Shown here: positions 37,296 through 39,083 of the stretch, one piece after another
Layout of the letters: each line of letters begins with the position of its first letter
Numbering within the stretch: position 1 is the stretch's first letter
From: Sinorhizobium saheli
GTDB taxonomy: Bacteria > Pseudomonadota > Alphaproteobacteria > Rhizobiales > Rhizobiaceae
DNA length: 64,000 bases
Reading direction: 5' to 3'
NCBI RefSeq assembly: GCF_001651875.1
Contig: NZ_LNQB01000064.1
Location: 1 to 64,000 of the forward strand
Made by a program: the position numbers and the translations under genes
The notes under the pieces: generated by a model
Databases searched by the model: none
What the model saw: only the letters and a program-made list of their open reading frames with translations
What the model was told of the DNA's origin: nothing

Positions 37296-37883
37296 ATGTT
37301 CCGGGCCCTTTCCTCAACGACGGTGCGCTGGCGCCCGCTCGAGGGGGAAGGGCTCGAACATCTGACGGTCAGACCTTTGGACACACCCGTCGGCGCGGCC
37401 ATCCGCGCCGAAAGCGTTCTCATCGGCGAGCGCGGCGGCGTGCCCTACGGCGTGCGCTATCGCATCGACTGCGACGCCCTCTGGCGCGTCTTTTCCGTCC
37501 TTGTCGAAACCACGCAGGGACGGAGGCTCCATCTCCTGTCCGACGGACACGGCCATTGGCGCCGGGCCGACGGCACGGCACTGCCGGAGTTCGACGGCTG
37601 CATCGACGTCGATCTTGCCGGCACGCCCTTCACCAACACGCTGCCGATCAGGCGCCTCGGCCTCGACCGGCAATCCGGCACCGCCAGGCTCAAGATGCTC
37701 TACGTGCCGTTCGACAGCTTCGAACCCACGGTCGACGGCCAGCATTACACCTGCCTCGAAGACGGCAAGCTCTATCGCTACGAGGCGGAGGACCGCAGCT
37801 TCACCGCCGATCTCGCCGTCGACGAGGACGGCCTCGTCATCGACTACCCCACCCTTTTCCAGAGACTATCCGGAGACCATCTG
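37296..37883 (+). CDS. Putative glycolipid-binding (PF06475-like) protein, open into pgk
   Basis: The 196-codon reading frame starts 5 bp after the gap stop ([22 protein letters not shown]...) and resembles the PF06475 putative glycolipid-binding family: [51 protein letters not shown] strands and a C-terminal [17 protein letters not shown]. The domain looks complete, but no stop codon follows: it continues straight through CTG-ATG into the pgk frame. An out-of-frame TGATG overlaps the pgk start, as if the original stop had been shifted. It may be a true fusion, an error or an old frameshift. The SD is weak. Function unknown. Confidence 0.7.
37871..37876 (+). promoter_or_regulatory. Ribosome binding site that decides the pgk start
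   Basis: CGGAGA lies seven bases before the internal ATG at 37884. It supports independent initiation of pgk even though the upstream frame is open into it. Confidence 0.6.
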
Positions 37884-39083
37884 ATGACTTTCAAGACTCT
37901 CGACGACCTGACCGACATTGCCGGCAAGCGCGTGCTCGTACGCGTCGACCTCAACGTGCCGGTGAAGGACGGCCAGGTCACCGACACCACCCGCATCGAG
38001 CGCGTGGCGCCGACAATCCGCGAGCTCTCCGAAAAGGGTGCGAAGGTCATCCTGCTCGCCCATTTCGGTCGTCCGAAGGGTGAACCCGTCGAAGACATGT
38101 CGCTAAAGACGATCGCTCCGGCCGTCGAGGAGATCCTCGACCAGCGCGTCTATTTCGCCGCCGACTGCATCGGCGACAAGGCCGCCGGGGCGATTGCCGA
38201 GTTGAACGACGGCGACGTGCTGCTCCTCGAAAACACCCGCTTCCACAAGGGCGAGGAGAAGAACGACCCCGCCTTCGTCACGGCGCTCGCCGCCAACGGC
38301 GACCTCTATGTCAACGATGCGTTCTCGGCAGCCCACCGCGCCCACGCCTCGACCGAAGGCCTCGCGCACCATCTTCCCGCCTATGCCGGCCGTACCATGC
38401 AGGCCGAACTGGAAGCGCTGGAAAAAGGCCTCGGCAATCCGAAGCGCCCGGTCGTCGCGATCGTTGGCGGCGCCAAGGTCTCGACCAAGATCGACCTCCT
38501 GCAGAACCTCGTGAAGAAGGTCGACGCGCTCGTCATCGGCGGCGGCATGGCCAACACGTTCCTCGCCGCGCAGGGCATCGATGTCGGCAAGTCGCTTTGC
38601 GAGCACGACCTTGCGGAAACCGCGAGGTCGATCGTCGCGGCGGCGGACGCCGCCGGTTGCGCCATCGTGCTGCCGGAAGACGGCGTCGTCGCCCGTGAAT
38701 TCAAGGCCGGCGCCGACAACGAGGTCGTCGACATCAAGGCGATCCCGGCCGACGCCATGGTGCTCGACGTCGGCCCGAAATCCGTCGCGGCCGTCAGCGA
38801 CTGGATTTCGCGCGCCGAAACCCTCGTCTGGAACGGTCCGCTCGGCGCCTTCGAAATCGCGCCCTTCGACAGGGCGACCGTCGCCGTGGCTGAGCACGCG
38901 GCGAGCCGCACCCGGGCCGGCGCGCTCGTCTCCGTCGCCGGCGGCGGCGATACGGTCGCAGCACTCAACCATGCCGAGGTCGCCGACGACTTCAGCTATG
39001 TCTCGACCGCCGGCGGCGCCTTCCTCGAATGGATGGAAGGCAAGCCGCTGCCGGGCGTCGACATCCTCCGCCAGGCGAAGTGA
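37884..39083 (+). CDS. pgk: Phosphoglycerate kinase
   Basis: Pgk interconverts 1,3-bisphosphoglycerate and 3-phosphoglycerate. The 399-aa protein begins [30 protein letters not shown], with the substrate motif [28 protein letters not shown], the hinge region [13 protein letters not shown], and the nucleotide motif GGGDTVAAL near the C-terminus. Length and all motifs are normal. The internal ATG at 37884 has a good SD. In this sequence the same frame stays open upstream through a PF06475-like region, so a 595-residue fusion could also be made from the ATG at 37296. Confidence 0.96.

Follow-up and report, generated by a model that had tools for sequence, protein, structure and literature searches.

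A PF06475-family gene continuous in frame with pgk in Sinorhizobium saheli

Phosphoglycerate kinase (Pgk) occurs in Thermotoga maritima both free and within a longer fusion with the product of a neighbouring coding sequence, triosephosphate isomerase, which follows Pgk and forms with it an active tetramer (Schurig et al. 1995, as described in excerpts of PMC7729029 and referenced in PMC4256274). This coexistence of free and fused enzyme appears to be the nearest known case, in effect, to the locus described here. A second relevant arrangement is the overlapping gene pair, in which the stop codon of one gene overlaps the start codon of the next as TGATG. According to the sections of PMC6728339 available to us, the tested overlapping pairs of Escherichia coli were coupled by termination-reinitiation, with one exception, and de novo initiation at the downstream gene was still possible. 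The third point of comparison is the protein family PF06475 (DUF1089), represented by PA1994, a tight dimer whose connection with glycolipid metabolism was inferred from structural similarity and genome context, and whose homologue in Sinorhizobium meliloti is linked to gap and transketolase (PMC2954207, in part). Literature searches, with subscription journals largely outside their reach, returned no paper on phosphoglycerate kinase together with PF06475, none on the locus tag SMc03980, and none under a set of terms for gene fusion and internal initiation.

We analysed a stretch of 64,000 nucleotides of Sinorhizobium saheli (the window), in which a PF06475 gene runs into pgk. As in T. maritima, Pgk shares one frame (of 595 codons) with a second domain, but that domain is PF06475 rather than triosephosphate isomerase, and it stands before Pgk instead of after it. 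The Thermotoga fusion has been shown to exist, whereas that of the window is predicted from sequence; the production of two forms is here a potential, in which an internal start would supply the free Pgk. Pfam and a sequence match to 2h1t put the upstream domain in the family of PA1994; PA1994 is a separate protein, whereas the PF06475 domain of the window is continuous with Pgk. The TGATG arrangement is found at this very place in 22 of 29 same-genus loci; in the window, unlike the pairs described in the same sections of PMC6728339, the TGA is out of the upstream frame, and reinitiation there would not be possible.

If real, the locus is a natural case of one small indel at a stop-start overlap fusing operon neighbours with the downstream start kept. 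It would allow tests of Pgk output without termination-reinitiation, and of the tolerance of Pgk for an N-terminal partner, because the sole pgk found in the genome is the one involved. A transposon screen put the pgk of Rhizobium leguminosarum (RL4011) in the growth-impaired class for minimal mannitol medium (PMC5118466, in part), so that an effect should be measurable.

The fused frame and its two domains

Translation of the window gives 595 codons, unbroken by any internal stop, that begin with the ATG at 37296 and are closed by the stop codon ending at 39083, and confirms the continuous frame reported in a preliminary description of this DNA. A mechanical list of open reading frames opens the same frame earlier, at 37233 inside gap (616 aa); we took 37296 as the start because each of the 29 same-genus loci compared has an ATG at the aligned position. 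The frame is called unusual because none of these 29 loci shows the fusion, and not on account of its length. The features are collected in Table 1. Transketolase, gap, the fused frame and a class-I aldolase follow one another on the same strand, and the stop codon of gap (TAA) lies five bases before the PF06475 start.

Table 1. Features of the window around the fused frame
Feature	Position	Strand	Remarks
Transketolase gene	34225..36207	+	PF00456, PF02779, PF22613
gap, glyceraldehyde-3-phosphate dehydrogenase	36280..37290	+	PF00044, PF02800
PF06475 part of the fused frame	37296..37883	+	196 codons before the pgk ATG
Two-base deletion site	37866..37873	+	CTATCCGG in the window vs CTATCACCGG in TGATG-type relatives
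CGGAGA, Shine-Dalgarno-like site of pgk	37871..37876	+	Seven bases before the ATG at 37884; kept
TGATG across the pgk ATG	37882..37886	+	TGA out of frame here; upstream stop in 22/29 same-genus loci
pgk, phosphoglycerate kinase	37884..39083	+	399 aa counted from the pgk ATG; shares the frame of the upstream gene
Class-I fructose-bisphosphate aldolase gene	39430..40455	+	PF00274

Both Pfam profiles are matched essentially from end to end. PF06475 covers frame residues 9-190 (profile 1-180 of 180, E 4.8e-54), scoring 183.1 bits against a gathering cut-off of 25, and PF00162, the PGK family, covers residues 203-583 (profile 2-379 of 379, E 3.1e-154), scoring 514 bits against a cut-off of 27, which places both parts within their families, the second as a full-length PGK; Pfam finds no other domain in the frame. 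The earlier reading of two complete units, a PF06475 domain and then Pgk, is thereby borne out, and the product sizes proposed with it, 42 and 64 kDa, agree with computed masses of 41.8 kDa for free Pgk and 63.8 kDa for the fusion. A search of the genome turned up a single PF06475 gene and a single pgk, so that working Pgk must come from the fused locus, whether free or fused.

The nearest solved structure to the PF06475 part is PA1994 (2h1t, E 1.8e-39), and glycolipid binding by this part is putative. The preliminary description spoke of an envelope-type domain; this is a weak designation, since the family was named from structural similarity and genome context (PMC2954207, in part). No strongly hydrophobic 12-residue stretch was found in the first 40 residues, where the best mean hydropathy was 0.67. 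An AlphaFold2 model (17-row alignment, mean pLDDT 68, pTM 0.41) is mainly beta in its first part and mixed in its second, with residues 188-205 below pLDDT 50; weak as it is, it predicts nothing rigid at the join.

The junction in Sinorhizobium and its relatives

The PF06475 part was matched in all 33 genus genomes searched, that of the window included, and loci were retrieved for 29 of the other 32. The upstream gene has a stop codon in every one of these: 22 end in a TGATG overlap with pgk, and seven at an earlier TGA, 14 bases before the pgk ATG. A stop in relatives had been proposed as a check on the fusion, and it was found at all 29 loci. As for the three genomes left over, the open frames of G002 (202 aa) and G030 (395 aa) are not long enough to span pgk, and G004 retains the TGATG stop.

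The Shine-Dalgarno-like site and the out-of-frame TGATG described earlier were both located in the window. CGGAGA or TGGAGA occupies the same place in the 29 same-genus loci, and the site sits within the upstream gene, as it does in TGATG-overlap pairs; an upstream stop overlapping the pgk ATG in frame is found in such pairs and is missing from the window. Just 5' of the Shine-Dalgarno sequence the window is two bases shorter than its relatives, with CTATCCGGAGA against CTATCACCGGAGA. Alignments place the loss between 37869 and 37871, the exact place being ambiguous by one base, and these two bases are the sole difference in that stretch of the aligned junctions. It is the two-base deletion that brings the upstream gene into frame with pgk and puts the overlap stop out of frame, whereas the Shine-Dalgarno sequence and ATG of pgk are unchanged from those of relatives. 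Predicted folding leaves the Shine-Dalgarno sequence 0.35 unpaired in the window (0.25-0.62 in five relatives) and the pgk ATG 0.58 unpaired (0.03-0.55 in the same number).

Comparison of stop types suggests how the junction arose. In Rhizobium- and Pararhizobium-type loci, and in seven of the 29 from the same genus, a TGA stands just ahead of the Shine-Dalgarno sequence, in TGACCGGAGAC or a like sequence. The remaining 22 have TCACCGGAGAC or TCACTGGAGAC, and their genes are five codons longer, ending in the TGATG overlap; the window has TCCGGAGAC, two bases fewer than TCACCGGAGAC. In the simplest history the earlier stop would have been lost by substitution, giving a gene that ended in the TGATG overlap, and a two-base deletion would then have shifted the frame away from that stop. 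The neighbours of the window in a pgk/gap tree built from 41 sequences are G023, Ensifer aridi and further genomes of TGATG type. One other region of the tree holds both stop types intermingled (L017 among L015 and L018, for example), and loss of the earlier stop therefore need not be a single event. That an ancestral TGATG overlap was brought in frame by an indel, as the preliminary description proposed, is thus well supported by the 22 overlapping loci, with the correction that two bases were lost and not one.

Among the genomes examined, the deletion is private to the window. A further 78 loci were added from another collection, and 139 loci were read in all; four lacked a pgk match in the fetched stretch, and of the remaining 135 three were the window's own and fused. 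None of the other 132, among which the same genomes are partly repeated, shows the fusion. Larger searches covered samples of the family and of the order. The family sample held matches in 116 of 394 genomes (115 besides the window) and no second fusion, and no other open frame exceeded 564 aa; in the order sample PF06475 was present in 95 of 397 genomes (94 besides the window), again without a second fusion, and frames longer than 600 aa occurred, besides the window, only in G634 and G636.

Long frames in both samples that resembled fusions were inspected and rejected. The frames of G110 (564 aa), G137 and G265 (530 aa each) owe their length to sequence upstream of the PF06475 gene, read in a different frame from gap, and close where that gene ends. 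Those of G636 (642 aa) and G634 (639 aa) also extend upstream; the stretch fetched for each contained neither a pgk nor a gap match, and the same is true of G544 (501 aa). In G707 (533 aa) pgk adjoins, but the frame stops before it. At two loci, L094 and L095, the PF06475 gene begins three bases past the gap match and lies about 2.3 kb from pgk; these distances show a link to gap kept without a link to pgk.

Proposed origin and products of the fused frame

We give a probability of roughly 0.7 to a real, recent and near-neutral two-base deletion on the branch leading to the window, with free Pgk kept and some fusion made. The PF06475 gene, having lost two bases a few codons short of its end, would have moved out of frame with the TGATG and into the frame of pgk. 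Free Pgk (41.8 kDa) would still be initiated at its own Shine-Dalgarno sequence, and ribosomes finishing the upstream gene would run on to give some of the 63.8-kDa PF06475-Pgk fusion. As upstream ribosomes would no longer terminate, the free PF06475 protein would be lost and termination-reinitiation at the overlap would become impossible. Production of both free Pgk and fusion by the cell is plausible because the pgk Shine-Dalgarno sequence and ATG are intact, and internal initiation would be the simplest source of the free enzyme. Against seven relatives, dN/dS is 0.12-0.22 in the PF06475 part and 0.06-0.10 in pgk; these values suggest that selection has acted on the upstream gene along most of the branch, and are silent on the time since the deletion. 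We infer that the change is recent and close to neutral, and not a selected enzyme.

A sequencing or assembly error at the two-base deletion, behind which the usual TGATG overlap and two separate proteins would persist, is unlikely, yet it has several points in its favour. The fusion is known from a single assembly of 102 contigs and is seen in only one genome among those examined. The PF06475 gene of Ensifer aridi LMR001 (G004, loci L093:2501-3075 and L166), which keeps the TGATG stop, is itself frameshifted, having lost one base near residue 137-144; draft assemblies do therefore contain small indels in this gene, and with the window they amount to two of 33 genus genomes. Furthermore, a second two-base deletion breaks a large gene of the same assembly as the window, an adenylate cyclase/AAA/TPR gene (contig C99, about position 2855, L197) that encodes 1092 aa in G023; this may point to a common artefact, or equally to ordinary mutation. 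Against an error, the junction is not a homopolymer run, and the upstream frame is otherwise intact up to the join, and constrained.

A wider survey of the assembly also argues against this explanation. About 470 kb of it was surveyed for frameshifts against 520 kb of G023, the best match of the PF06475 search. Of 265 coding-like open reading frames of G023, 247 were intact in the window assembly, 11 partial and seven flagged as frameshifted; in the reverse direction 239 of 253 were intact, nine partial and five flagged, one of the five being the fusion itself. Flagged frameshifts are about equally common in the two genomes (7/265 vs 5/253), and the idea of an assembly rich in indel errors is not supported. 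If the deletion were an error after all, it would matter only as an annotation trap.

Very improbable, in our view, is a selected bifunctional or tethered Pgk, in which the PF06475 part would dimerise Pgk or bring it to a ligand; the lineage would then have replaced the free PF06475 protein by a fusion with its own role, such as Pgk dimerisation or the recruitment of this glycolytic enzyme to a ligand, lipid or sugar, beside internally initiated free Pgk. In its favour, both domains are complete and the PF06475 part is constrained; the family member PA1994 is described as a tight dimer (PMC2954207, in part), and free and fused Pgk coexist in T. maritima (excerpts of PMC7729029). The upstream constraint can, however, all predate the deletion, and the fusion is private to one genome among those examined. 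The join is the old 3' end minus two bases, without a co-adapted look, and its model is of low confidence, with residues 188-205 below pLDDT 50. The locus gives no sign of selection for the fusion. It is scarcely credible that the genus regularly makes a joint product of the PF06475 gene and pgk through programmed frameshifting or readthrough which the window has hard-wired, for although the two lie about 80 bases apart or less in most of the 132 relative loci, their start-to-start distance varies (590, 589, 587, 580 and 577 bases, and others), so that the frame offset varies too, and the aligned junctions show no long slippery run.

Several minor observations accompany these results. Ten pairs from the frameshift survey were inspected in detail (five of the seven flagged and five of the 11 partial open reading frames). 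Besides the adenylate cyclase gene they include an aldo/keto reductase gene that is 139 bases shorter than in G023 (contig C102, about position 47050, L190), an open reading frame without a Pfam match that differs by one base between the two genomes, and an NmrA-like gene with an 11-base difference ahead of its domain. One flagged open reading frame of the window, 6772-7196, was discounted as a gene because it is antisense to, and runs past, the minus-strand frame 6474-7004. A consensus scan of 36200-39500 gave three terminator-like sites, matching the shuffle mean of 3.1, and two promoter-like sites, both on the minus strand, for a shuffle mean of 0.4. One of these two promoter-like matches runs antisense across the pgk start (37894-37865, minus strand), with the two-base deletion inside it.
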